This document shows, piece by piece, positions 26,938 to 42,100 of a stretch of 64,000 bases of DNA (position 1 is the first letter of the stretch; each line of letters begins with the position of its first letter). Under the pieces are notes generated by a model that worked only from the letters and a program-made list of their open reading frames with translations, searched no databases and was not told the DNA's origin. A program made the position numbers and the translations under genes. Origin of the DNA: Klebsiella pneumoniae (GTDB lineage: Bacteria; Pseudomonadota; Gammaproteobacteria; Pseudomonadales; Pseudohongiellaceae); contig CAMDML010000005.1 of NCBI GenBank assembly GCA_945902215.1, positions 1 through 64,000 of the forward strand. The letters are read 5' to 3'.

Positions 26938-27948
26938 TCAGGACGCTATCCAACTCACGAGCGTGGACACCCATTGCGGGTGTGCGTTAAGGCAGGGAAT
27001 AAGGGTCAGTTGGTCACCGCCTGCCGCTTTGAAAGTATCTGCCCCTTGAAGTTCGATTTCTTCCAAAGTTTCGAGACAGTCCGTCACAAAAGCCGGGCAC
27101 AACACCAGCAAAGTTTTGACGCCTTTGCCGGCCAGTTCCTTCAGCGTTTGTTCGGTGGAGGGCTCCAACCATTTGGCGCGGCCGAGTCGGGATTGAAAGG
27201 CCACCGAATACTGCTCTGGACGCAGGCCTGCAAGTTTGACGAACTCCTCCGTCGTACGCATGACCTGATGACGGTAGCAAGTAGCGTGCGCGGGTGAGGG
27301 AGTCTGACAGCAGTTCGCTACTTTCAGGCAGTGCTGCCCAGTAGGGTCGGCCTTGGTGATGTGTAGTTCGGGCAGGCCGTGATAACTGAACAGCACATGG
27401 TCGAAGGCTTGCGCCAGCGCGGGCCGTGCACTGTTGACCAGCGCTGCAATATAGTCAGGCTGGTCATAGAACGGTGCGGGTACTTTCAAGGTAAGGCCGA
27501 GCTTGTGCTCCGCAATGATGCGTTCAGCTTCTTTCACCGAGGTCAGCACGGTGCTTTCCGCATAGTGCGGGTACAACGGCAGGAACAGCACTTCGCTGAC
27601 ACCGGGCACGGCAGCGAGCCGGATCAATTCGCTTTCAATGGACGGGCTGCCGTAGCGCATCGCCATGCCGACCAGCAGCGTAGTCTGCTGTTGCACAGCT
27701 TTGAGCAGGTCCATTGACAGGGCGACTAATGGCGAGCCTTGCGGGGTCCAGATGCTTTGGTAAGCATGTGCAGAGCGTTTCGGCCGTGTTGGCAGCACGA
27801 ACAGACTGACAATCAGGCGCCGCAGCAGCCACGGCAACTGAATCACATACGGGTCCATCAAAAACTGGTTGAGGTAGCGCCGTACTTCAGGCACTTCCGG
27901 CTTGTCGGGGGAACCCAGGTTGGCGAACAGGACTGCGCGGTTGCTCAT
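26938..27948 (-). CDS. hemH: Ferrochelatase
   Basis: A 336-residue enzyme that inserts Fe(II) into protoporphyrin IX, the last step of protoheme synthesis. The N-terminal FANLGSPDKPEVPEVRRYL, the catalytic His of FSYHGLPELHI and the Glu-rich CLETLEEIELQGAD are conserved. A cysteine-rich insertion (HCLKVANCCQ to HATCYRHQ, ~200-225) resembles the region found in other gammaproteobacterial ferrochelatases; whether it holds an iron-sulfur cluster is not known. The start is ATG 27948. It is transcribed alone, convergent with YgiQ. The 129-base gap at 26809-26937 holds no recognised gene or terminator. Confidence 0.93.
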   Translation of the reverse strand: MSNRAVLFANLGSPDKPEVPEVRRYLNQFLMDPYVIQLPWLLRRLIVSLFVLPTRPKRSAHAYQSIWTPQGSPLVALSMDLLKAVQQQTTLLVGMAMRYGSPSIESELIRLAAVPGVSEVLFLPLYPHYAESTVLTSVKEAERIIAEHKLGLTLKVPAPFYDQPDYIAALVNSARPALAQAFDHVLFSYHGLPELHITKADPTGQHCLKVANCCQTPSPAHATCYRHQVMRTTEEFVKLAGLRPEQYSVAFQSRLGRAKWLEPSTEQTLKELAGKGVKTLLVLCPAFVTDCLETLEEIELQGADTFKAAGGDQLTLIPCLNAHPQWVSTLVSWIAS

Positions 27949-28044
27949 TTGAAATCTGCTTTGAGGAATATTGCGTAATGACGACTTTATAACATGAGGA
28001 CAGTACGTGGGGTATCTTGTGCTGGATTGGTTTTGTGTTTCCGG

Positions 28045-28262: not shown

Positions 28263-29216
28263 ATGACAAGCACACGTATAAAAGTCGGTATCAGCAGCTG
28301 TTTGCTCGGCAATGAAGTGCGTTACAACGGCGGACACAAACTGTCCACATTGTGCACCAACGACCTGAGCCGCTATTTCGAGTTTGTGCCGACCTGTCCC
28401 GAGGCTGGCGCGGGGCTCGGTATTCCGCGTCCGCCAATCCGGCTGGTCGGCGATCCCCATGCGCCGCGCGCAGTGCGAGTGCAGGATGCCGGAGTTGATG
28501 TTACCGACAGTCTCAAGGCTTACAGTGCAACACGCCTGCCCGAACTGGGTGACCTGTGTGGTTACATTTTCATCAAGAACTCACCGAGCTGCGGCTTGTT
28601 CCGGGTGAAAGTGTATCGCGCCAACGGCATGCCGCATGACGAACCTGCGCGCGGCATCTTCGCTACCGAATTTACCCGCGCGTATCCGCTGCTCCCGGTC
28701 GAAGAAGATGGCCGCTTGCAAGACCCGGTGTTGCGCGAGAATTTCATTGCGCGCGTATTTGCCTGGCGCAATTGGCAGGAGATGAAAGCAAATGGACTCA
28801 GCGCTGCTGCCTTGATCGACTTTCATTCACGCTACAAATACACCCTGATGGCGCACAGCCCGCAGCAGTACCAGCAACTCGGGCGCATGCTGGCCGATGC
28901 CGGCAAGCATGATTCTTCTGTGCTGGGCGAGCGTTATTTCTCCGGGCTCATGCAAGCCCTGCAGCAGAAAGCCACGCGCAGAACCAACACCAATGTACTG
29001 ATGCACCTGCAGGGCTATCTGAAAAAGAAACTGCAGGCTGGTGAAAAACAGGGCATCGGTGCAATTATCGAACAATACCGCAAGGGCATTGTGCCACTGG
29101 TGGTGCCGGTTACCATGCTGCGCCACTATTTTCAGCAGCATCGCGACCCCTACATCGAGAAGCAGTCTTACCTGCAGCCCTATCCTGACGAACTGAGCCT
29201 GAGAAACGCGCTGTGA
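28263..29216 (+). CDS. DUF523-DUF1722 protein (YbgA/TudS-like)
   Basis: A 317-residue two-domain protein. The DUF523 half (~1-155) has three conserved cysteines (SSCLLG ~12, PTCPEAG ~46, NSPSCGLF ~117) that in the TudS desulfurases hold a [4Fe-4S] cluster acting on thiouracil. The DUF1722 half (~190-305) starts DFHSRYKYTLMAHSPQQYQQLG, as in E. coli YbgA. A desulfidase function is possible from the DUF523 family but not shown for this fusion. The start is ATG 28263. The stop overlaps the GTG of the photolyase gene (GTGA), so the two are co-translated, the same pairing as E. coli ybgA-phr. Confidence 0.87.
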   Translation: MTSTRIKVGISSCLLGNEVRYNGGHKLSTLCTNDLSRYFEFVPTCPEAGAGLGIPRPPIRLVGDPHAPRAVRVQDAGVDVTDSLKAYSATRLPELGDLCGYIFIKNSPSCGLFRVKVYRANGMPHDEPARGIFATEFTRAYPLLPVEEDGRLQDPVLRENFIARVFAWRNWQEMKANGLSAAALIDFHSRYKYTLMAHSPQQYQQLGRMLADAGKHDSSVLGERYFSGLMQALQQKATRRTNTNVLMHLQGYLKKKLQAGEKQGIGAIIEQYRKGIVPLVVPVTMLRHYFQQHRDPYIEKQSYLQPYPDELSLRNAL

Positions 29217-30622
29217 GTCTCGCCCTGCACTGGTTCCGCACCGACCTCAGGGTGCATGACAACCTTGCCTTGTCTGCAGCACAAGCTTCCGGCCCGGTTG
29301 CTGCCTTGTATATCGCCACGCCGAGCCAGTGGCGCGAACACGACGATGCGCCGATCAAACAGGATTACTGGAGGCGTAACCTGCAAATACTCGAAGCAGA
29401 GTTACGCGCACGGGGTATCCCGCTTTTGTATATGGAAGTTGCAACCTATCGCGATATCCCTGCACTGCTGGCGCGCGTGTTGCCTGCGTGGCAGGTGCGC
29501 GCGCTCCACTGCAACCGCGAATACCCCGTGAATGAACAGCTGCGCGACGCGGCCGTTCACACCGTGTGCAGTGAACTTGGGGTGATGATGCAGCTGCACG
29601 ACGACCAGATACTGGTCGCGCCCGAGCGCGTACTCAACAAAAGTGGTGAACCATACAAGGTGTTTACCCCGTATTCACGCGTGATGCGTGAACTGTTGCA
29701 GCAAGGTTTGCCCCACGCGTCTGTGTTGCAAAAACAGGCTTCTGCGCAAAAAAGACATATAGAACAGGTTCTTGTGCAACTGCCGGAACAACGCCAGTTG
29801 CACGAATTGGGTTGGCCTGCGATTGAACCTGGTTGGGAGCGCTATTGGCCGGCAGGTGAGGCGGCAGCGCAGAAACAACTCGATGCCTTCTGTGAAAGCC
29901 GCATCGATACATACAAGGCACAGCGCGATTTGCCTGCGGTAAGCGGTACCAGTCAGTTGTCACCGGCACTTGCAGCTGGCGTGCTCTCGATACGTGCATG
30001 CTGGCGGCGGGCAACACTGGGGCAGGACAGCGAAGGGGTTTTCACCTGGCAGAACGAACTGCTGTGGCGCGACTTCTACAAATACATCATGTGGCACTAC
30101 CCGCACGTCTGCAAAAAAATGGCGTGGCGTGATGATGTGGGGCACGTGCCGTGGCGGCATGACAAAAAGGACTTTGCCCTGTGGTGTGAAGGGCGTACCG
30201 GCATTCCGATTGTTGATGCGGCAATGCGCCAATTACTGGAGACCGGCTGGATGCACAACCGGCTGCGCATGCTCACCGCCATGTTTCTTACCAAACAATT
30301 GTTGATCGACTGGCGCTGGGGCGAGCGCTGGTTTATGCAGCATCTTGTTGATGGCGATTTCGCCGCAAACAACGGTGGCTGGCAGTGGAGCGCATCGACC
30401 GGGACGGACGCAGCACCGTACTTTCGCATCTTCAATCCGGTGACGCAGTCGCGCCGCTTTGATGCGGAAGGGAAATTTATTCGGCAGTTTGTGCCGATGC
30501 TGGCAGCACTGGACAATGCTGCGATTCATGAACCGGGGCTGTTACGTCCGAACAATTATCCAGCCCCGATGATAGATCTTGCGTTTGGCAGGGAGCGCGC
30601 GTTGAACGCGTTCAAGAAATAA
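29213..30622 (+). CDS. phrB: Deoxyribodipyrimidine photolyase
   Basis: A 469-residue class I photolyase/cryptochrome that repairs UV-induced cyclobutane pyrimidine dimers with blue light. The N-terminal antenna domain begins LALHWFRTDLRVHDNLAL. The FAD/DNA-binding domain has TGIPIVDAAMRQLLETGWMHNRLRM and NNGGWQWSASTGTDAAPYFRIFNP. The tryptophans of the electron-transfer chain appear in these segments. The start is GTG 29213 overlapping the DUF523 stop. The stop is immediately next to that of the convergent lipoprotein gene. Photolyases are members of the ChrR/ECF singlet-oxygen regulon in other bacteria, but I saw no TGATCC-type promoter here. Confidence 0.93.
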   Translation: MSLALHWFRTDLRVHDNLALSAAQASGPVAALYIATPSQWREHDDAPIKQDYWRRNLQILEAELRARGIPLLYMEVATYRDIPALLARVLPAWQVRALHCNREYPVNEQLRDAAVHTVCSELGVMMQLHDDQILVAPERVLNKSGEPYKVFTPYSRVMRELLQQGLPHASVLQKQASAQKRHIEQVLVQLPEQRQLHELGWPAIEPGWERYWPAGEAAAQKQLDAFCESRIDTYKAQRDLPAVSGTSQLSPALAAGVLSIRACWRRATLGQDSEGVFTWQNELLWRDFYKYIMWHYPHVCKKMAWRDDVGHVPWRHDKKDFALWCEGRTGIPIVDAAMRQLLETGWMHNRLRMLTAMFLTKQLLIDWRWGERWFMQHLVDGDFAANNGGWQWSASTGTDAAPYFRIFNPVTQSRRFDAEGKFIRQFVPMLAALDNAAIHEPGLLRPNNYPAPMIDLAFGRERALNAFKK

Positions 30623-31753: not shown

Positions 31754-32530
31754 TTAAATCAGCGCACGCACTTCCGGCGCCAGCTCGCGTCCGGCGGCGA
31801 GGAAGCCGTCGAGCGGGGGCAGCCAGTCGGTAACGGCGGTCTTGAAGGAAGGGCGTGCCTGCACCGCCTTGTACCAGCGCGCAATATTGGGCAGGGTTTC
31901 GGCGATGAGCGCGTTCTGGCCAAGATGGTCGAGGCGCAGCACGTACGGCAGTACCGCGCAGTCAGCCAGAGAAAACATGGGGCCGGTAATCCAGCCTGAT
32001 CCTGTCAGCATGTCTTCCACCTCCTGCAAGACATGCATGTATTCCTGCAGCGCGTGGGTGAATACCGGTGTCTTGATGCCATCCTTCATCACGGCCCGGC
32101 GGTTTTCGCGCCGCACGGGATCAGGAATTTCGTTGAGCAGGGTTTCCAGTGCTTCAGGGCCCTTCTTGAGCATCGCCGGGCGTAGGCCGATAGCGTAGGT
32201 GATTACGCTGCAGGCGGGATGCTGGGTGTCGTCAATCTTGCGGATCAGTGCGCGCATCCGGAAGCGGGCAGCGGCAGTAGTCGGTTTCAGCGACACCTGT
32301 GGATAGGCATCGTCGAGATACTCGTTGATCAGCGAGGATTCGATATACACGCGGCCCTGATCTTCCAGGCTGGGCACAACCGCCTTCGGATTGATCTTGC
32401 GATACTCCGCGCTGAACTGGTCACCTGTCTGCAGATCCATCAGGATGCTTTCGAAGGTCAGGTGTTTTTCCGCGAGGACCAAGCGGACTTTCTGGGAACA
32501 GGTGGACAGGGCGTTGTGATAGAGCTTCAT
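31754..32530 (-). CDS. Glutathione S-transferase family protein
   Basis: A 258-residue GST-fold protein. The N-terminal thioredoxin-like half has YHNALSTCSQKVRLVLAEKHL, with an STCSQ motif as in omega/zeta-like GSTs, then KAVVPSLEDQGRVYIESSLINEYLDD, which includes the cis-Pro and the ES glutathione-binding pair. The helical half contains GPMFSLADCAVLPYVLRLDHLG with the N-capping S-x-x-D. The reaction is unknown; this group includes dehalogenase- and LigE/LigF-like enzymes. The start is ATG 32530 with a weak ribosome site. The upstream DNA is a gene remnant. Confidence 0.82.
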   Translation of the reverse strand: MKLYHNALSTCSQKVRLVLAEKHLTFESILMDLQTGDQFSAEYRKINPKAVVPSLEDQGRVYIESSLINEYLDDAYPQVSLKPTTAAARFRMRALIRKIDDTQHPACSVITYAIGLRPAMLKKGPEALETLLNEIPDPVRRENRRAVMKDGIKTPVFTHALQEYMHVLQEVEDMLTGSGWITGPMFSLADCAVLPYVLRLDHLGQNALIAETLPNIARWYKAVQARPSFKTAVTDWLPPLDGFLAAGRELAPEVRALI

Positions 32531-32537
32531 GACTGAA

Positions 32538-32793
32538 TTCCAGATACCAAGGTTCTGTGCTTTCGAAAGGAATGATTACTTCGCCGGGCACGTAGAGCAT
32601 TTTTCTTGTGGAGCTCTACCGGTGTGGTGTACATGACAGGACCGTTGGCCGTCATCAAGTATTGCATCTCACTGCAGTCTTGGATCGCGGTGAATTTTTC
32701 GGTGATCACTGATTCACTGCTTTGCGGGATGCCGGCCTGGTCGAAGAACGGCCAGCTGATGTGGGTGGTCGTTGCTACCAGTGTTGCGCCTTC
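32538..32793 (-). pseudogene. Truncated, frameshifted GHWEGDTLVVET-family gene
   Basis: On the minus strand the frame after a TAA at about 32796 reads EGATLVATTTHISWPFF, DQAGIPQ, VITEKF and GPVMYTTPVELHKK, which matches the C-terminal third of the secreted GHWEGDTLVVET family found five times elsewhere in this window. After an A-rich run near 32610 the match continues in the next frame (LYVPGEVIIPF, TEPWYLEF). The first two thirds, including the signal peptide, are missing: only about 40 bases remain before the anti-sigma gene. It is therefore a 5'-deleted, frameshifted remnant. Confidence 0.65.
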
Positions 32794-32832
32794 TTAAACA
32801 TCGCTGCTCAAAACTCTTTATCCAAAACTTTA

Positions 32833-33501
32833 TTAAAAGAATGGCGCCAGCAACCGGTAAAAGAGATTGCTGAGGATAAGGGGTTTTTCGAGGGTGGACA
32901 GGCACAGGCAGTCCTGATCTTGTGAGGCCACCGGCTGGTGCTTTTCGCCTGCGGTCCTGACGATGAAGTCCCCAACTCCGTATTTGTCATCTTGGTCAGA
33001 GAAGCTGCCCTTGATGATGACAGTGATCTCGTCGCCGGCATGGCGGTGATGCGGCACGCTACCGCCTGCCTTGATGTGCAGTAACGAGGTTTCGCGCTGG
33101 GGCGAACCCACCTTCAGCCGACTGTAACGAAACCCTTTGCCGATGCGGCGCCACTTCAGTGTCTCGATATTGCCACGTCCAAGTTTGTGCAGGGGACGCG
33201 GCAGCCCAGAAACGTTGTCTGTTGCGCTTGCGGTTGCTGATATTGGGGTAGTGGGCAAGCCGGAGATACGGGTCATCAACCGCCCGAAATCATCTGCGGC
33301 CACGTGTGCGGATTGCGCTGCAGCAGGCTCTGGCAAAAGTTGCATGAACAGCACTGAGCCGAGCTCAGTCAGTTCACGCACTTTCACGCGGCAAGTGGCG
33401 CAGTAATGCAAATGCGTGGCCACGCACAGGGCTTGTTCTTCGGGCAGACTGCCGGCGGTATAGTCGGACAGAAAGCGGGCTTCGGGATGGTATTTCACCA
33501 T
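32833..33501 (-). CDS. chrR: ChrR-type zinc-binding anti-sigma factor
   Basis: A 222-residue two-domain anti-sigma factor. The N-terminal zinc module has His5, His30, Cys34 and Cys37 (YHPEARFL and THLHYCATC), the same spacing as His6/His31/Cys35/Cys38 of Rhodobacter sphaeroides ChrR. The C-terminal cupin (~120-205) has VPHHRHAGDEITVIIKG and GEKHQPV, matching the second metal site (His, His, Glu, His). In Rhodobacter ChrR holds RpoE inactive until singlet oxygen appears. The start is GTG 33501 (GTG AAA TAC CAT) or close to it, 17 bp after the sigma gene stop, so the pair is one operon. Confidence 0.9.
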   Translation of the reverse strand: MVKYHPEARFLSDYTAGSLPEEQALCVATHLHYCATCRVKVRELTELGSVLFMQLLPEPAAAQSAHVAADDFGRLMTRISGLPTTPISATASATDNVSGLPRPLHKLGRGNIETLKWRRIGKGFRYSRLKVGSPQRETSLLHIKAGGSVPHHRHAGDEITVIIKGSFSDQDDKYGVGDFIVRTAGEKHQPVASQDQDCLCLSTLEKPLILSNLFYRLLAPFF

Positions 33502-33518
33502 AGGTTTACCAATGAGTC

Positions 33519-34175
33519 TCAGCGATCGACGAGCAGTTTAAGTTTGTTAAGAGCCAACCGCACACGCGATTTCACGGTGCCAAGCGGCAGACTCAGTTCT
33601 TGTGCTACTTCCGCATGCGATTTATCTTCCATATATACCTTGCGGAGGATGAAGGCCTGCTCTTCGGGCAGTGTCAGCAGTGACTCCTGGATCTGGCGGC
33701 GGCTGCGTTGCTGTGCCACATGATTGAATACGTCACTGTTTTCATCCACAAACCAGATGTCATCCATGTCGAGGTCGCCGTCTTCGTCTTCACCATGGAG
33801 CGATACACTGTTGACTACATGCCGGGCAAGCTTGCGCAACAAGTCGATACGCATGTTGCGTGCAATAGTGAAGACCCAGGTGGCGGGGCTGGCCAGTTTC
33901 GCGTCGAAGGATGCTGCGCGCGTCCATACCTTCAGCAACGTTTCCTGCACCAACTCGTCCGCGAACTGGTCGGGGTGATCGAGCGAGTTCACCTTGTAGG
34001 CAAACGCGCGGATCAACGGGGCGAAGTGGTTAAACAGTTCGTGAAACGCGCGCCTGTCACCCTCACGAGCCACGCGATTAAGGCAGTCAACCCAATGTGC
34101 GTTGCCCTCATCAGAGGTGGCTTCGGGTGCTTCAGTGCCGGAATGGGAATCCATGGTTAATGCAGTGCTCAACAT
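33519..34175 (-). CDS. ECF sigma factor, RpoE/ECF11-like partner of ChrR
   Basis: A 218-residue group IV sigma factor. Region 2 spans ~40-110 (NHFAPLIRAFAYKV, ADELVQETLLKVW, ATWVFTIARNMRIDLLRK) and region 4 ~160-215 (ESLLTLPEEQAFILRKVYMEDKSHAEVAQ and LPLGTVKSRVRLALNKL). An acidic stretch (GEDEDGDLDMDDIWFVDEN) links them. The start is ATG 34175 after GGGGT. The neighbour is a ChrR-type anti-sigma, and an ECF11-like promoter at 34212-34239 points into this gene, so positive autoregulation is likely. The expected signal is singlet oxygen or related photo-oxidative stress, by analogy with Rhodobacter. Confidence 0.92.
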   Translation of the reverse strand: MLSTALTMDSHSGTEAPEATSDEGNAHWVDCLNRVAREGDRRAFHELFNHFAPLIRAFAYKVNSLDHPDQFADELVQETLLKVWTRAASFDAKLASPATWVFTIARNMRIDLLRKLARHVVNSVSLHGEDEDGDLDMDDIWFVDENSDVFNHVAQQRSRRQIQESLLTLPEEQAFILRKVYMEDKSHAEVAQELSLPLGTVKSRVRLALNKLKLLVDR

Positions 34176-34211
34176 GGTTACCCCGTGGGCCGTGGTTCGG
34201 CGTTGGGGCTC

Positions 34212-34239
34212 TATACGCTGGAAAGTGGTCCTTGGATCA
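34212..34239 (-). promoter_or_regulatory. ECF11-type promoter for the sigma/anti-sigma operon
   Basis: On the minus strand the -35 element TGATCC (34239-34234) and the -10 element CGTATA (34217-34212) are separated by 16 bases, 36 bases before the sigma-factor ATG. This matches the TGATCC-N16/17-CGTA consensus described for RpoE/ChrR-type sigma factors. Confidence 0.75.
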
Positions 34240-34251
34240 GTGGTTTGGGAC

Positions 34252-34279
34252 TAATCCGGCAAGCCGTCGGCTCCGTATA
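34252..34279 (+). promoter_or_regulatory. ECF11-type promoter for the five-gene plus-strand operon
   Basis: TAATCC at 34252-34257 and CGTATA at 34274-34279 are again 16 bases apart, 40 bases before the ATG at 34320. It differs from the divergent promoter by one base in the -35. The -10 region reads CGTATAATG, so a TATAAT-type housekeeping promoter could overlap, but no TTGACA-like -35 is placed correctly. Confidence 0.7.
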
Positions 34280-34319
34280 ATGTAAATAGTTCAAAACGAC
34301 ACGTTCCGGAGCACTCCAG

Positions 34320-34787
34320 ATGGAAGCCAAATCCCTGTTAGCCCCCACGCGCGGCGGCGGCAATCCCGTAGTTCTGAAACTGAAACAGTTCTACGAAGAG
34401 TTCTCTTCCGGGACTATAGCCGGGCTGGACGACATTTACACGCAGGATGTCGAGTTTCGTGATCCGGTCCATACCATCAGCGGCAGCCTCGGTATGAAAA
34501 ACTATTTGCGCGGGATGGCGGGGAATCTGCGGTATTACCGCATACGTTATCTCGATGAAATACTGGGCGAAAACTCCGCCTACCTGACTTGGGAGATGGA
34601 CTATGCCCACCCGAGCCTGCAGCGCGGCCGTGTTCTCACGGTGCGCGGCATGACCAGAATCCAATTCACTTCGAAGGTATTTTATCACGAAGACTGCTAT
34701 GACATGGGCGCGCTGTTGTACGACCACGTGCCGGGCCTTGGCGCCGCCACCCGGCATCTGAAAAAACGGCTCGCGCAGCAGGCCTGA
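34320..34787 (+). CDS. NTF2/SnoaL-like protein, first gene of the ECF-controlled operon
   Basis: A 155-residue protein with an NTF2-like cone: VVLKLKQFYEEFSSGTIAGLDDIYTQDVEFRDPVHTISG, then YRIRYLDEILGENSAYLTWEMDY and a C-terminal FYHEDCYDMGALLYDHVPGLG. Such proteins are regularly found at the head of the ChrR/ECF-linked SDR-oxidoreductase-DUF1365-Cfa cluster. No catalytic residues are assigned. ATG 34320 lies 40 bases after the ECF-type -10 and is preceded by GGAG. The next gene starts two bases after its stop. Confidence 0.8.
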   Translation: MEAKSLLAPTRGGGNPVVLKLKQFYEEFSSGTIAGLDDIYTQDVEFRDPVHTISGSLGMKNYLRGMAGNLRYYRIRYLDEILGENSAYLTWEMDYAHPSLQRGRVLTVRGMTRIQFTSKVFYHEDCYDMGALLYDHVPGLGAATRHLKKRLAQQA

Positions 34788-34789
34788 AT

Positions 34790-35590
34790 ATGAGCAATGA
34801 TTTGCGCCAAAACTGGTGGATCACTGGAGCCAGTTCCGGCATTGGCCGCGAACTGGCCTTGTTGTTGGCGGAGCAAGGTCATCGGGTGTACATCAGCGCG
34901 CGCAATGCTACAGAACTGGCCACACTGGCGCTGCAGTATCCCGGCTTATTGCTGCCACTGCCCTGCGATGTCAGTGATGATAAGGCCATGGCGGGCTTGT
35001 TCGCCAATGTAGCTGATGTGCCACCCTGGCTCGATGGCGTGATCCTTAGCGCGGGTGTCTGCGAATATGTTGAACTTCCGGAACTTGAGCTTGCGGTATG
35101 CCGCCGTGTTTTCGCGGTCAATTACTTTGGCGTCGTAAATGCGTGCCGCGCTGCGTTACCGTTGCTGCAGGCGGGGCGCAAGCGGACTCCGCACCGCACA
35201 CCGCAACTCGTGGGTATCAGCAGCCTCAGCAGTCTGGTGGGATTTCCGCGTGCCGAAGCCTATGGCGCCTCAAAAGCCGCGATGACCTATTTCCTCGATT
35301 CCCTGCGTTGCGATGTGCAGCCGGCAATCGCCGTTACTGTGGTTAGCCCCGGGTTTGTGACCACGCCGATGTCAGTGCGCAACGATTTTGCGATGCCTTT
35401 TGTCTGGCCTGCGCGCAAGGCGGCAGAGTTTATCGTGGCGCGATTGGGTCAGAGCCGGAACGCCATCTATTTCCCCTGGCAATTGCATATGTTGCTGGCC
35501 TTGGCCGCACGGCTGCCAGGAATGTGGTACCGCTTCATCGTGCCGAAGTTGGCGCGCACCGGACGTCATTCGCCCGGAGCTGATGCATGA
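34790..35590 (+). CDS. Short-chain dehydrogenase/reductase
   Basis: A 266-residue SDR. The Rossmann motif is TGASSGIGRELALLLAEQG; the active-site Ser is in GISSLSSLVGF and the Y-x3-K is AYGASKAAMTYF. The conserved NADP-type NAG motif is replaced by LSAGVC. It oxidises or reduces an alcohol/carbonyl with NAD(P). The C-terminal ~40 residues (FPWQLHMLLALAARLPGMWYRFIV) are hydrophobic and may touch the membrane, as for lipid-acting SDRs. Its stop overlaps the next ATG (ATGA). Confidence 0.88.
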   Translation: MSNDLRQNWWITGASSGIGRELALLLAEQGHRVYISARNATELATLALQYPGLLLPLPCDVSDDKAMAGLFANVADVPPWLDGVILSAGVCEYVELPELELAVCRRVFAVNYFGVVNACRAALPLLQAGRKRTPHRTPQLVGISSLSSLVGFPRAEAYGASKAAMTYFLDSLRCDVQPAIAVTVVSPGFVTTPMSVRNDFAMPFVWPARKAAEFIVARLGQSRNAIYFPWQLHMLLALAARLPGMWYRFIVPKLARTGRHSPGADA

Positions 35591-36876
35591 AAATAGCAGT
35601 GGTCGGCAGTGGCATTTCCGGTTTGACGGCTGCCTGGCGCTTGGCCGGCGACAATGAAGTGCATGTCTATGAGGCCGCAGATCGTCTCGGCGGGCATACG
35701 GCTACCATCGATGTGCAGTACCGCGCCGAACAGCTCGCCATCGATACCGGCTTCATTGTTTTCAACGACTGGACCTACCCAAATTTCATTGCGTTGCTTA
35801 ACAAGCTTGGCGTGCGCAGTCGGCCGACCACCATGAGCTTCAGCGTGAGCGATGCTGCTTCAGGCGTCGAATATGCCGGCACCAATCTCAATACTCTGTT
35901 CGCGCAGCGCAAAAATCTGCTGTCGCCGAGCTTTCTGCGCATGGTGCGCGATATTCAGCGGTTCAACAGTGAGTCTGAACAGCATCTGTTGCATTATCCG
36001 GAGCTGGCCGATATTACGCTTGGTGAATATCTCCGGCGCTTTGCATATTCCGACTCCTTCCGGGACTGGTACCTGCTGCCGATGGGGGCAGCTATCTGGT
36101 CGTCAAACCAGCGCAGCATGGAGGCGTTCCCGCTGCAGCTTTTCGTGCGCTTCTTCCGCAACCACGGGCTGCTCAATTTGCGCAACCGGCCGCAGTGGCG
36201 CGTGATTGAAGGTGGTTCCAGATCCTACCTGGAACCATTGACGGCAGCTTATCGCGACAACATTCATCTCAGCACACCGATCAAGGAAGTGCGGCGTGTG
36301 CACACCAGTCAGGGCGCTCAAGTGTGTCTGACCAGCAAGCGTGGCCCCGAGTATTTCGACGAGGTCATCTTCGCCTGCCACAGCGATCAGGCACTGGCTT
36401 TGTTGGGCGATGCCACAGCTGCCGAGAAAGCGGTGCTGGCCGCGATACCGTATTCACATAACGAAGTTGTACTGCATACCGACACCACCATGTTGCCGCG
36501 CAATCAGCGCTGCTGGGCGAGCTGGAATGTCAGCCTGGGTCGCACACCCGCGGAACTACCGGCCCTTACCTACAATATGAACATCTTGCAGGGGCTGCAG
36601 AGTGAGCAGACCTGGTGTGTCACTCTCAACCAGACCAAACTGATCAAACCAGAGTGTATTGTGGACGTGTTCCATTATGAGCATCCGCAATTCACGCTCG
36701 ATGGCATGCGCGCGCAGCAGCGCTGGCATGAAATCAACGGGGTGCATCACACATGGTTCTGCGGTGCGTGGTGGCGCAATGGCTTCCATGAAGACGGCGT
36801 GTGGAGCGCGCAGCTCGTCGTCGATGCGCTCCAGGCCCGCAAGCGCCAGCGGCTCGCGCTACCGCTGGCGGGTTAA
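35587..36876 (+). CDS. FAD-dependent amine-oxidase-like oxidoreductase
   Basis: A 429-residue flavoprotein beginning with the dinucleotide-binding MKIAVVGSGISGLTAAWRLAG and the adjacent EAADRLGGHTATIDV. AIDTGFIVFNDWTYPNFIALL and the C-terminal WFCGAWWRNGFHEDGVWSAQ are characteristic of the group found beside DUF1365 and cyclopropane synthase genes. In Rhodobacter the homologous cluster is induced by singlet oxygen and helps form modified (furan or cyclopropane) fatty acids. The desaturating/oxidising role on a lipid is an inference from that context. It overlaps the SDR gene by four bases. Confidence 0.87.
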   Translation: MKIAVVGSGISGLTAAWRLAGDNEVHVYEAADRLGGHTATIDVQYRAEQLAIDTGFIVFNDWTYPNFIALLNKLGVRSRPTTMSFSVSDAASGVEYAGTNLNTLFAQRKNLLSPSFLRMVRDIQRFNSESEQHLLHYPELADITLGEYLRRFAYSDSFRDWYLLPMGAAIWSSNQRSMEAFPLQLFVRFFRNHGLLNLRNRPQWRVIEGGSRSYLEPLTAAYRDNIHLSTPIKEVRRVHTSQGAQVCLTSKRGPEYFDEVIFACHSDQALALLGDATAAEKAVLAAIPYSHNEVVLHTDTTMLPRNQRCWASWNVSLGRTPAELPALTYNMNILQGLQSEQTWCVTLNQTKLIKPECIVDVFHYEHPQFTLDGMRAQQRWHEINGVHHTWFCGAWWRNGFHEDGVWSAQLVVDALQARKRQRLALPLAG

Positions 36877-36885
36877 GGAGGCGAT

Positions 36886-37719
36886 GTGCTGATACCGCAG
36901 ATAAAAACCGGGCTTGACGCTACCCTGCACAGCGGGTTGTACGAGGGCATCGTTACGCACGCCAGATTACATCCCAGGGAGCACCGCTTCAGTTACAAGG
37001 TGTGCATGGTGTATCTCGATCTCGCAGAACTGAACGCCGTGTTCAGCCAAAGCAGTTTGTGGTCACGCGAGCGCTGGAACTTGGCCACGTTCCGCCGCGC
37101 TGATTATCTGGGTGACCCCGCGCTGCCACTGGACACTGCCGTCAGGGCGCGTATCCGGGAAGTTACCAGCCGTGAGCATGCAGGACCGATCCGCATGCTG
37201 AGCAACCTGCGCTACTTCGGTTATATCATCAACCCCATTACTTGCTATTACTGCTTTGATGCTGACGAACGTCTGCAGTTCATTGTTGCTGAAGTCACCA
37301 ACACTCCCTGGCGTGAACGCCATTCCTACGTGCTGGAACTGGACCCCAATTCCAGCAATGCCACAGTGCAGTTTCCGAAACAGTTGCATGTATCGCCGTT
37401 CATGGATATGGATGTTGCCTATAATTGGCGCAGTACCGTGCCGGCACAAAATCTGGTCATCCTGATGGAGAACGTGCAACGCGGCACTCGCATGTTCACC
37501 GCTGGCTTGCTGCTCAAGCGCCGCCCCCTGACTGCTGCGGCGATGCGCCGCCAGTTGTGGCGTTATCCACTGATGACTGCGCAAGTTGCGCTCGGCATTT
37601 ATTGGCAGGCCTGCAAATTGTGGTGGAAGGGAGTGCGCTTCGTGCCGCACCCGCGCCGCACCGCGCCGCCACCGCAAACCATTTACCTGGACCCAAAGAG
37701 CAGGAGTGCAGAACGTTGA
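36886..37719 (+). CDS. DUF1365-family protein
   Basis: A 277-residue protein with the family pattern [32 protein letters not shown], then [26 protein letters not shown] and VEVTNTPW-like [16 protein letters not shown]. The C-terminal part ([20 protein letters not shown]) is amphipathic or hydrophobic. Function is unknown; it is nearly always between an FAD oxidoreductase and a Cfa-type methyltransferase, as here. The start is GTG 36886 behind AAGGAGG. The stop overlaps the TTG start of the next gene. Confidence 0.88.
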
Positions 37720-38969
37720 GAATCACTGAAGTCAGTTCCGTAAAAACCGCAGCTGCTGGCACGCTTCTGGAAAACTGGGCACGCCGTATGGTGCATGCCT
37801 TGTTTGCCAAACTTGAGCATGGCAGTCTGGTACTCGAAGAGGGTGGGCAGGTGTATTGCTTCGGCGAAGACCGCCACCGTGCCCAGCTGTGCGCCAGCAT
37901 CCAGGTGAAGGATACCGCTGCGTATCTGGCGGTACTGCAAAACGGCTCGCTTGGTGCGGGCGAGGGCTATATGCACGGCTTGTGGGAATCACCTGATCTG
38001 CTTCAGGTGGTGCGGCTGTTTGTGCTCAACATGGGCACAGTCGATACCATGGAACGCCAGGGTTCGTGGTGGCAGAGGCTGGGGCGGCGTGCGTTTCATG
38101 TCCTGCGCCGCAATTCGCGTGATGGTGCCCGCCAGAACATCGCTGCGCATTACGACCTATCCAACGATTTTTTTGAACTGTTTCTCGATCCGACAATGGC
38201 TTACTCGGCAGGAATCTTCAAAGATCGTAATGCGACTCTGGAACAAGCCTCTCTGACAAAATTCCAGCACATCTGCGAACGTCTGCAGTTGCAACCTGGC
38301 GATCACTTGTTGGAAATCGGCACAGGCTGGGGCGGACTCGCAATTCACGCTGCGAAACACTTCGGCTGTCGCGTGACAACTACCACGCTGTCGCATGAGC
38401 AGTTTCAGTATGCAAAGGCATGGGTGGAACGCGAAGGGCTTGCCGGGCGCATCACTCTGTGTGAACAGGATTACCGTGAGCTTGAAGGCAAATACGACAA
38501 ATTGGTGTCGGTAGAAATGATCGAGGCAGTTGGCGCGGAATATTACAGCGCCTATTTCGCCAAATGCTCAGGCCTGCTCAAGCCACAAGGACTGATGCTG
38601 ATCCAGGCCATCACCATTTCTGACCAGCGCTACAAGCAGTCGCTGGGCAACACCGACTTCATCAAGCGTTACATCTTCCCCGGTGGCCAGTTGCCGTCAA
38701 ATGCAGTTATTGCGCAGCACATAGCGGAAGATACCGATATGCAACTGATCGGCATGGAAGACATCACACGCGATTATGCCCTGACGCTCAACGCCTGGCG
38801 TGAGCGCTTTCAGGACCGGCTCGCAGAAGTGCGCCAGCTTGGCTGCGATGAAGTTTTCATCCGCATGTGGCGCTACTATTTATGCTTCTGCGAGGGCGGG
38901 TTTCTGGAGCGCGTAATCCATACGGGCCAGTTTCTGCTGGCCAAGCCGGGATATCGCGAGACGATATGA
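37716..38969 (+). CDS. Cyclopropane-fatty-acid synthase-like methyltransferase
   Basis: A 417-residue Cfa-family enzyme. The N-terminal ~130 residues are the lipid-binding-like domain. The SAM site is [17 protein letters not shown] (~200), followed by [35 protein letters not shown] and [14 protein letters not shown], all typical. It transfers a methylene or methyl group to unsaturated phospholipid acyl chains at the inner membrane. I choose TTG 37716, which overlaps the DUF1365 stop (TTGA) and has AGGAG nine bases upstream. A longer open frame back to 37425 is only the shadow of DUF1365. It is the last gene of the operon. Confidence 0.88.
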
Positions 38970-39158
38970 CGGCAATACATGGTGGTATTCCAGGCGTGAC
39001 TTGGTGCAGATTGATATTGATCATGAAGCAAGGCCCCAAACAACACTGCCGCTAGGGACACGCTTCACAGTGATGGGCAATCCCGATATTGCTTCTGTCA
39101 GCTGGCGGCGCTGGATCTGGTTCGATGTGTTGCCGGCAACGACGCCGGCCTCGTGCAC

Positions 39159-42100
39159 TTATGCCAAAGGTGGGGCACCGGGCGTCAAGGCCAGCTTTTT
39201 GTCGGGTTCACTGCGAAACCACTTGCCAAAGCGGTGTGCTACGGCCAGCTGCATATCATCCAATAGTGTGTAAAACACCGGTACGATAAACAAGCTGACC
39301 ACTGTCGAGACGATCAGGCCGCCCAGCACGGCAACGCCGATGGGCGCACGGAAACTCGGATCGCCCGCCAGGCCCAGCGCCACCGGGAACATGCCGGCGC
39401 TCATCGCAATTGACGTCATCACAATTGGCCGCGCACGCTTGGCACACGAGTCCATCATCGCATCGACCTGCGACATACCGTGGTCGCGTTGCGCCATGAT
39501 GGCGTACTCCACCAGCAGGATCGAGTTCTTCGTCACGATCCCCATTAGCATCAGCAAACCAATCAGCGAGTTGATCGCGAGACCGTAGCCTGCGAGCAGC
39601 AACGCCACGATGGCGCCGGCAGCCGAAGGCGGTAGCGCGGACAGAATCGTAATCGGCTGCACAAACTTCTGGAACAGGATCACGAGCACTGAGTAGATCG
39701 CCAGAATGCCGATGAACATCGCGGTGGCGAAGCGGCTGAATATATCCGTGATGAAACGTGCGGTACCCGTGCGCATGAACTCCACGCCATCGGGCAGGTT
39801 CTGCATCGCCGGCGAGGCTTCCACGCGGTCGAGGATGTCACCCAAGGGCAATCCATTCAGGTTCGCACTCAACGTGATATTGCGGCTGCGGTTCACGCGC
39901 GAAATCTCGGCAGGACCGGAGCCGAGGCTGACACTCGCTACGTTGATCAACGGCACCGGGCCGCGGCTGCCGGGGACGTCGAGCAAACTGATACGTTCGA
40001 TGTCGCTGCGGGCGGCATCGTTCAAGCGCACCCGGATCGGGATCTGGCGGTTGTCGAGATTGAAACGGGCCAGACCTGTGCTGACATCGCCGGAAGTAGC
40101 AATGCGGGTCACCTGGCTCAGGGCATCGGTGGTCACGCCCAGCGCGGCAGCACGTTCGGGATCGGGGCGGATGACAATTTCGGGTTTTTGCAGCCCGGTG
40201 CTGCTGTTAACGGTACCCAGCCCTTCGATGGTGCGCAGTTCACGTTCGACAGAAGCAGCAGCTATCCGCAGGTTTTCAGAGTTGTCGCTTGCCAGGGTCA
40301 GTTCCAGGCGGTCGCCGCCGGGGCCGCCCCCGCCTCCGAAGTTCAGACGCGCGCCGGGAACCCCGCGCAAGGCTTCGGTGGCCTGACGTTCGAATTCTTG
40401 TTGCATGCCTTCCTTTTGCGAGGGATTGTCCAACTGGATTGTCAGTGTGGCGCTGCGCACCGCACCGGCAGAACCGCCGCTGCCGAAACCGTCGCCGCCG
40501 CTGCCGGCACCGATGGCTGTGTACACGCTGCGTACTTCCGGGAACTGTGCCACGAGGATATGGCGCGCTTCCTCGGCAGTGGCATGAGTTTCGCCGATGG
40601 TGGCACCAGGCGGTAGCTCAACAGTCAGCTGGGTAAAACCATTGTCCCCCGCTGGGGCGAAACCGGTGGGGAGGAGACTGAATAGCGACAGCATGGCGAG
40701 CATCGCCACGCTGGACACTACCACCACGATCATCCGGTGCTGCAGGCACCAGCGGATCTTGCTCAAGTACCACGTCAGCATCGGGCCAACACGTTCTACT
40801 TCCATATGCGGCTTGAGCATATAAGCCGCCATCATCGGCGTCAGCATGCGTGCTACCAGCAGTGAGAACAGCACGGCGATGGTCACTGTGAAACCAAAGG
40901 GGCGGAAGAATTCACCGGCGATGCTGCCCATGAAGGCCACCGGAATGAACACGGCGCAGATCGTCAGTGTGGTGGCTACTACTGCGAGTCCGATTTCGAT
41001 GGCGGCATCCATCGCGGCCTGACGCGGGGTCTTGCCCATGCGCAGATGGCGCACGATGTTTTCAACTTCGACGATCGCATCGTCCACCAGAATACCGACG
41101 ACTAGCGTGAGCGCGACCAGTGTCAGAATGTTCAGTGTGTAGCCAAAGGAGTAGATCACCCAGAAGGTGGGGATGATCGACAGTGGTAGCGCGGCGGCAG
41201 AAATGAGCGTTGCGCGCCAGTCGCGCAAAAAGATCCACACGACCAGTACGGCGAGCAGGGCACCTTCGATCAGCATTTCGATCGAGGCGTTGTAGGAGGT
41301 CTGGATGTATTCGACAGTGGAACTGGCTTCGGCGAAAGTGATATCCGGGTATTCAGTTTTAAGACGTTCAACTACCTCGCGTGCGTCTTTGGCAACATCG
41401 AGCGCACTGGCGCCCCAGGCGCGGACAATCTCGAAGCCGACCACTGGCGTGCCGTTGTACAAGGCAATCTGCCTTTGTTCGCTTGCCTGATCGCGCACGT
41501 CGGCCAAGGTATCGAGTCTGACGTTGCGGCCATCAGGCAGCAAGATCGGCAATGCTTTCAATTCTTCGACTGAGGACACCAAGCCTGTGGTACGCACAGT
41601 CTGTTCCTGGCCACCGAGACGCGCTTCACCGCCGGGGCTTTCCACCTGGATGCGGCGCAACTGGCGCGAAATGTCGGTGGCGGTGGTGCCAAGTGCTGCC
41701 ACACGGTCGGGATTGAGGTCGACCCGGATTTCGCGATTCACGCCACCAACCCGTGTGAAGCGGCCAACACCCGCAACAGTAGTCATCTCCCGCGCCAGTT
41801 CGAGATCAACAAACCAGGACAGCTCCGTGTCAGTCATTTTTTCCGAAGCAACACTCCAGGTGACGACCGGCAGCCCGGCGGTAGTTGTGCGTGAAACAAT
41901 GGGTTCGTTGGCATCCTGCGGCAGATCGGCGCGGATACGGGTCAGCGCGTCGCGTACTTCATCCATCATGCGGCTCATGTCGGTGCCGAATACGAACTGG
42001 ATGATGGTGGTGGAAGCACCTTCGCTTACTGTGGAGCGCAATTCTTCGATGCCTGCGAGGGTCGCTACGGCATCCTCAACGCGGCGGGTGATTTCCGATT

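Follow-up and report, generated by a model that had tools for sequence, protein, structure and literature searches.

A conserved divergent pair of ECF11-type promoters as the probable control point of an RpoE/ChrR circuit and a furan-fatty-acid-type lipid operon

The 64-kb stretch of DNA analyzed here (the window) carries two outward-facing promoter sequences of the ECF11 type between an rpoE-chrR gene pair and a divergent lipid operon (Table 1), and it is highly probable (roughly 0.9) that an auto-amplifying oxidative-stress circuit of the ECF11 (RpoE/ChrR) type is controlled from this region and drives both rpoE-chrR and the lipid operon. The sequence elements, the gene families, and the tight packing of the genes can be read directly from the DNA, and both promoters are conserved among relatives.

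Table 1. Features in and around the promoter pair, with positions in the window
Feature	Position	Strand	Details
Ferrochelatase (hemH)	26938-27948	-	Divergent to ybgA-photolyase
Probable, weak ybgA-photolyase promoter	27952-27979	+	AAATCT-N16-CGTAAT; 9.4 bits, recurrence in relatives
Possible, weak, uncertain ferrochelatase promoter	28002-28029	-	CAATCC-N16-CGTACT
DUF523-DUF1722 (YbgA-like) gene and photolyase	28263-30622	+	Likely regulon members
ChrR anti-sigma factor	32833-33501	-	TIGR02451, Cupin_7, zinc-ligand positions
ECF sigma factor, RpoE (ECF11) type	33519-34175	-	Start 34175 or 34154
Left ECF11 promoter of rpoE-chrR	34212-34239	-	-35 TGATCC 34239-34234, 16-base spacer, -10 CGTATA 34217-34212
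Inter-box segment	34240-34251	.	12 bases separating both -35 boxes; distance not conserved
Right ECF11 promoter of furan-fatty-acid-type operon	34252-34279	+	-35 TAATCC 34252-34257, 16-base spacer, -10 CGTATA 34274-34279
SnoaL_2 (NTF2-like) protein, operon gene 1	34320-34787	+	
Short-chain dehydrogenase/reductase (SDR)	34790-35590	+	
FAD amine-oxidase-like protein, UfaD-like	35587-36876	+	By family and position
DUF1365 protein, UfaO-like	36886-37719	+	
CMAS/Cfa-family methyltransferase, UfaM-like	37716-38969	+	TTG start 37716 chosen; ORF list start 37425

Results

The Sigma Factor and Its Neighbor Resemble an RpoE/ChrR Pair

The closest solved relative of the sigma factor is R. sphaeroides RpoE (2q1z_A, E 6e-31; next match 1.7e-12). 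The adjoining gene encodes a protein with a zinc anti-sigma domain and a cupin-like domain (Cupin_7 match), which aligns with 2z2s/2q1z and scores 164.3 bits against the ChrR model TIGR02451 (cut-off 124.5) and 102.9 against the narrower equivalog NF051881, below the cut-off of 300 for that model. In the alignment with 2z2s, H5, H30, C34, and C37 together with H152, H154, E158, and H188 coincide with the R. sphaeroides zinc ligands at all eight positions. The sigma gene is preceded by its own TGATCC-N16-CGTA sequence, and before the lipid operon, as the putative promoter of core regulon genes, stands the right site, which is one base off and recurs in relatives. These features support the assignment of the two proteins as an ECF11 (RpoE/ChrR) pair, with singlet oxygen or an organic hydroperoxide as the putative activating signal.

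The Promoter Pair Stands Out in the Window

A direct check of the sequence confirmed the boxes, positions, orientation, and 12-base gap of the original prediction, which had also described the two 16-base spacers as identical and both sites as matching the RpoE/ChrR consensus. The spacers are identical in length but differ in sequence, and the left site carries the published TGATCC, whereas TAATCC in the right site departs from it by one base; likewise, CGTA holds as the consensus of the -10 box, but the letters past it, given as part of CGTATA, vary among relatives. When scored with a matrix for which 54 promoters of relatives (window excluded) were used, the left and right sites reach 21.4 and 20.0 bits; they are the two best in the 64 kb, where the third best reaches 12.9 bits.

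The Downstream Genes Look Like a Furan-Fatty-Acid Operon

Neighboring genes of the lipid operon either overlap or are separated by 2 or 9 bases (with the CMAS start taken at 37716), and the five therefore probably form one operon. By family and gene order, the FAD, DUF1365, and CMAS genes look like ufaD, ufaO, and ufaM of the furan-fatty-acid pathway, which makes 9M5-FuFA from vaccenate; the original prediction does not draw this link: a CMAS methyltransferase, a desaturase-like FAD protein, and a DUF1365 protein are encoded together here, and genes of the UfaM, UfaD, and UfaO types are adjacent in relatives such as L063, L087, and L102. Published accounts of R. sphaeroides and R. palustris have UfaD, UfaO, and UfaM leading to methylated and furan fatty acids (PMC6852236, PMC7380195). 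A number of related stretches (L027, L028, L031-L033, L035, L037-L039, L065-L068, L070, and L071) hold no UfaD gene, the SDR gene (SnoaL in L066) being followed by DUF1365; these relatives may therefore not run the full furan pathway from the lipid operon.

Both Promoters Are Conserved in Divergent Loci

Relatives of the SnoaL protein were sought in 144 genomes, 89 of which matched; of these, 30 loci were taken first, 40 further genomes were added, and 19 were left out. Among the first 30 loci, the one from the window included, rpoE is divergent to the SnoaL gene in 29, and the remaining stretch (L034) is without rpoE; both promoters score at least 8/10 in all 29 divergent loci, the cases at 8/10 being the left site of L029 and the right site of L015. 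The enlarged set of 189 comprises 103 divergent pairs, 49 sigma genes without this neighbor, and 37 stretches without a sigma gene, 29 of which (L213-L241) are centered on UfaD, so that the sigma gene may lie outside. Since the window occurs twice among the 103 pairs (L010 and L212), exact duplicates were removed, leaving 92 distinct intergenic regions.

As the original prediction would have it, the boxes are conserved: sites of at least 9/10 are found in both directions in 78 of the 92 distinct divergent regions (window included), as compared with 0.05% of 1,840 dinucleotide shuffles, and sites of at least 8/10 in 90 of the 92, as compared with 9.4% of the shuffles, all of these conservation counts including related loci and being uncorrected for relatedness. 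The two regions without a promoter pair are L150 and L197. In each direction, 85 of 90 pairs have a 16-base spacer, a figure that leans toward 16 because lengths of 15 to 17 were searched with a half-point bonus for 16. Two further loci with a UfaM-like divergent neighbor (L145 and L147), counted among the 49 rather than the 92, have 10/10 sites both ways. In L191 and L203, rpoE, chrR, SnoaL, SDR, and UfaD genes lie on one strand, with no site of at least 9/10 before rpoE, and neither the divergent arrangement nor the promoter is therefore universal; judged by their gene order, these two loci are an alternative architecture.

An internal control is provided by 80 loci that differ in whether a lipid operon lies beside rpoE. 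A divergent site of at least 9/10 is present in 32 of the 38 named loci with the lipid operon and in 1 of the 42 without it, in groups that are uncorrected for relatedness and of unlike taxonomic makeup (Marinobacter, Rheinheimera, and Arsukibacterium account for many of the 42); the second promoter therefore goes with the lipid operon. At a threshold of 8/10, the corresponding counts are 38/38 and 18/42, i.e., chance sites are common at this level, and one locus (L136) listed among the 49 is divergent at the looser threshold used for the internal control. Sigma-directed sites of at least 9/10 occur in 38/38 and 26/42 loci, respectively. The 38 loci include records named Marinomonas, Variovorax, Rhodobacter, and Ancylobacter, which we take to span the gamma-, beta-, and alphaproteobacteria. 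Some rpoE-chrR loci of Marinobacter and Rheinheimera/Arsukibacterium (L076, L082, L106, L111, and L114) have no site of at least 9/10 upstream of rpoE, and such loci may therefore not autoregulate by an ECF11 promoter.

Consensus Match and Spacing of the Two Promoters

The two promoters differ in how closely they follow the consensus. The rpoE-directed site has the full consensus in 64 of the 92 regions and the lipid-directed site in 46; the rpoE side scores higher in 32 regions and the lipid side in 10, with 50 ties (uncorrected for relatedness). Of 90 pairs, 11 carry TAATCC in the lipid-directed site and none in the rpoE-directed one, and a locus without a lipid neighbor (L141) has TAATCC before rpoE. 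One could imagine that the divergent pair has been selected as an asymmetric switch, with the rpoE promoter at consensus and the lipid promoter kept weaker by TAATCC or another off-consensus -35 box, such that the sigma factor would amplify first and a lipid messenger that destroys ChrR would follow later, with mutual exclusion of the promoters in loci whose -35 boxes nearly touch; we regard this as unlikely.

A related proposal is that the tightness of the back-to-back arrangement is itself functional, i.e., that a pair of holoenzymes would compete or cooperate over these 12 bases, making the spacing a determinant of the sensor-to-effector balance. Two polymerases would presumably find little room in 12 bases, gaps as short as 1 and 2 bases exist (L087 and L189), and the gap values appeared to cluster at 12-13, 21-26, 34-36, and 46-49, as if the -35 boxes were helically phased. 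However, the gap ranges from 1 to 179 bases among relatives, and among 41 representatives, neither a 10.5-base period (p = 0.08 to 0.11) nor a period scan (0.08 to 0.14) was significant, leaving helical phasing unproven. The representatives were clustered at 62% global identity, a loose level that merged some unlike loci, and for L024 and L064, in which the automatically chosen site falls inside a coding region (gap 138), a gap of 13 was used in this test. Given the range of gaps and the lack of a significant period, tight geometry is not a conserved requirement, and a functional role for it strikes us as decidedly improbable.

A Housekeeping Promoter on the Right and Chance Matches Are Unlikely Explanations

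The -10 region of the right promoter overlaps a TATAAT (34276-34281), and its -35 box is off-consensus, which raises the question of whether the rpoE promoter is the sole genuine ECF11 promoter of the two, with the operon being read mainly by the housekeeping sigma factor from the TATAAT. A scan of positions 32480-39200 for sigma-70-type promoters yielded none that passes, and a housekeeping promoter at this TATAAT was rejected as a candidate. Moreover, of 101 pairs, only 4 have CGTATAAT on the lipid side, and the window itself accounts for two of these, whereas the right ECF11 site recurs in relatives. The genes of the corresponding S. maltophilia cluster are reported to rise 165- to 697-fold by RNA sequencing in a chrR mutant, with rpoEc up 45-fold, and the cluster to return to the wild-type level when rpoEc is missing (PMC11832516). 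We therefore consider transcription mainly from the TATAAT to be very unlikely.

That the two sites are chance matches in intergenic DNA is hardly conceivable: although a single TGATCC-N15..17-CGTA match, as found in the window, is unremarkable by itself (at least one occurs in 24 of 100 shuffled windows), the two TRATCC-N16-CGTA matches compare with 0.08 expected, were reached in 0 of 100 shuffles, and form a pair whose conservation in relatives already contradicts this reading.

Further Candidate Sites in the Window and the Genome

About 6 kb from the promoter pair, the ybgA-photolyase genes are probably a further, outlying target of the regulon. The site before them, AAATCT, scores 7/10 and thus falls below the 8/10 threshold, but is visible by matrix and alignment: eight of the nine genus loci (window included; the exception is L252) and both sister-genus loci have an xxATCY-N16-CGTA sequence directed toward ybgA, whose -35 box ends 0 to 4 bases ahead of the hemH start codon. 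When the eight genus loci are aligned, the TACG and GAT columns do not vary, and the site agrees with a ybgA-phrB promoter predicted in the published Shewanella work (PMC4336711). Whereas the main pair is back to back, the weak ybgA and ferrochelatase sites point toward one another. Taken as sequence motifs, the pair and the ybgA site suggest that the window harbors a small ECF11 island. In L242-L247, the two weak sites upstream of hemH flank a conserved TGTTATAAA, which is replaced by TGCTATAAA in L249 and absent in L248; this element may serve ferrochelatase as a housekeeping promoter of the extended -10 kind.

A scan for TGATCC-N16-CGTA upstream of other genes was proposed along with the original prediction. 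Across all 107 contigs of the genome (2.85 Mb), there are nine matches to TRATCC-N16-CGTA; apart from the pair, a simple ORF rule puts six of the seven remaining sites within ORFs of 200 aa or more and the seventh (L004) within shorter ones. One of the six, L007 (C41:26282-26307, TGATCC-N16-CGTA), is near the 5' end of its ORF, 62 bases before a gene called HlyD-like by eye (weak match to the HlyD protein of the window), and could be a genuine promoter; the match at the corresponding position of two close relatives (L273 and L274) is only 8/10. The wider pattern TRATCY-N15..17-CGTA gives 34 sites genome-wide, two of them the pair, versus 7 for the reversed pattern. Of the 32 others, 29 are available as loci (L009 and 28 more), and all of these but L061 were placed against ORFs; ORFs of 200 aa or more contain 23 of the 28 placed sites, the exceptions being L004, L045, L055, L057, and L060. 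L055 (TGATCT-N16-CGTA) lies 35 bases before a 275-aa ORF, and L045, with a 15-base spacer, lies 150 bases before a 192-aa ORF. With 23/28 sites inside such ORFs, a genome-wide regulon defined by the motif alone was rejected, and few candidates (L007, L045, and L055) are retained.

Discussion

The ECF11 circuit that we favor would operate as follows. In the resting state, the sigma factor would be held by ChrR; singlet oxygen or a related signal would inactivate ChrR, and the freed sigma factor would take RNA polymerase to the two outward-facing promoters. The left promoter would amplify rpoE-chrR, providing extra sigma factor as well as extra anti-sigma factor for shut-off, and the right promoter would switch on SnoaL-SDR-UfaD-UfaO-UfaM, leading to methylated and furan fatty acids. 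If the analogy with Rhodobacter holds, these products would be destroyed by singlet oxygen and would promote more ChrR turnover, closing a positive loop, and this lipid-to-ChrR half of the circuit is carried over from the Rhodobacter work. From the promoter boxes and gene families, we infer the transcription starts, the sigma dependence, the lipid product, and the signal. The original claim that the sigma factor drives its own operon and the lipid operon is supported by the RpoE/ChrR identity of the proteins, the recurrence of the pair, and the circuit seen by RNA sequencing in S. maltophilia; the added claim that it does so "at the same time" is safe as shared control, but simultaneous occupancy of one DNA molecule goes beyond the evidence.

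The arrangement is already known, because an equivalent divergent circuit has been published for Stenotrophomonas, and the pair in the window extends this circuit rather than being a new one. In the published description of the S. maltophilia locus, the sigma operon rpoEc-chrR-chrA is divergent to a lipid cluster (smlt2375-smlt2367) with CFA-synthase and FAD-oxidoreductase genes, and a putative sigma box precedes rpoEc and the cluster alike (PMC11832516). The S. maltophilia cluster differs in having nine genes, among them an acyl-CoA desaturase and two CFA synthases, whereas the operon in the window has five and begins with SnoaL-SDR; a chrA gene after chrR is a further difference from the window, and the regulon phenotype described is superoxide rather than singlet-oxygen tolerance (PMC11832516).

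The RpoE-ChrR core regulon of R. sphaeroides and the RSP1091-1087 operon resemble the window in its sigma, ChrR, UfaD-, UfaO-, and UfaM-type genes, but ufaM (RSP2144) lies outside RSP1087-1091, whereas the UfaM-like gene in the window is the last of the same operon; as reported there, the furan-fatty-acid genes are sigma targets and are needed for ChrR turnover under singlet oxygen, in a homeostatic loop (PMC6852236, PMC7380195). The ChIP-seq consensus described for P. syringae PSPTO_1043 is TGATCC-N16-CGTA, and the katG promoter, with TaATCt, is induced in spite of its off-consensus -35 box (PMC5507510). The RpoE2 promoters of S. oneidensis have the same boxes, with starts mapped for rpoE2 and pgpD (PMC4336711). 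P. syringae and S. oneidensis are like the window in having TGATCC-N16-CGTA on rpoE-chrR, photolyase, and cfa operons (PMC5507510, PMC4336711), but the P. syringae sigma operon lies at a different locus from the phrB-cfa operon (PMC5507510).

The internal control indicates that, in distantly related proteobacteria, an ECF11 sigma gene and a furan-fatty-acid-type operon are often joined by an outward-facing promoter pair. Because the sigma gene and the operon are joined in this way, the proposed loop in which a lipid messenger destroys ChrR becomes testable in non-photosynthetic bacteria.
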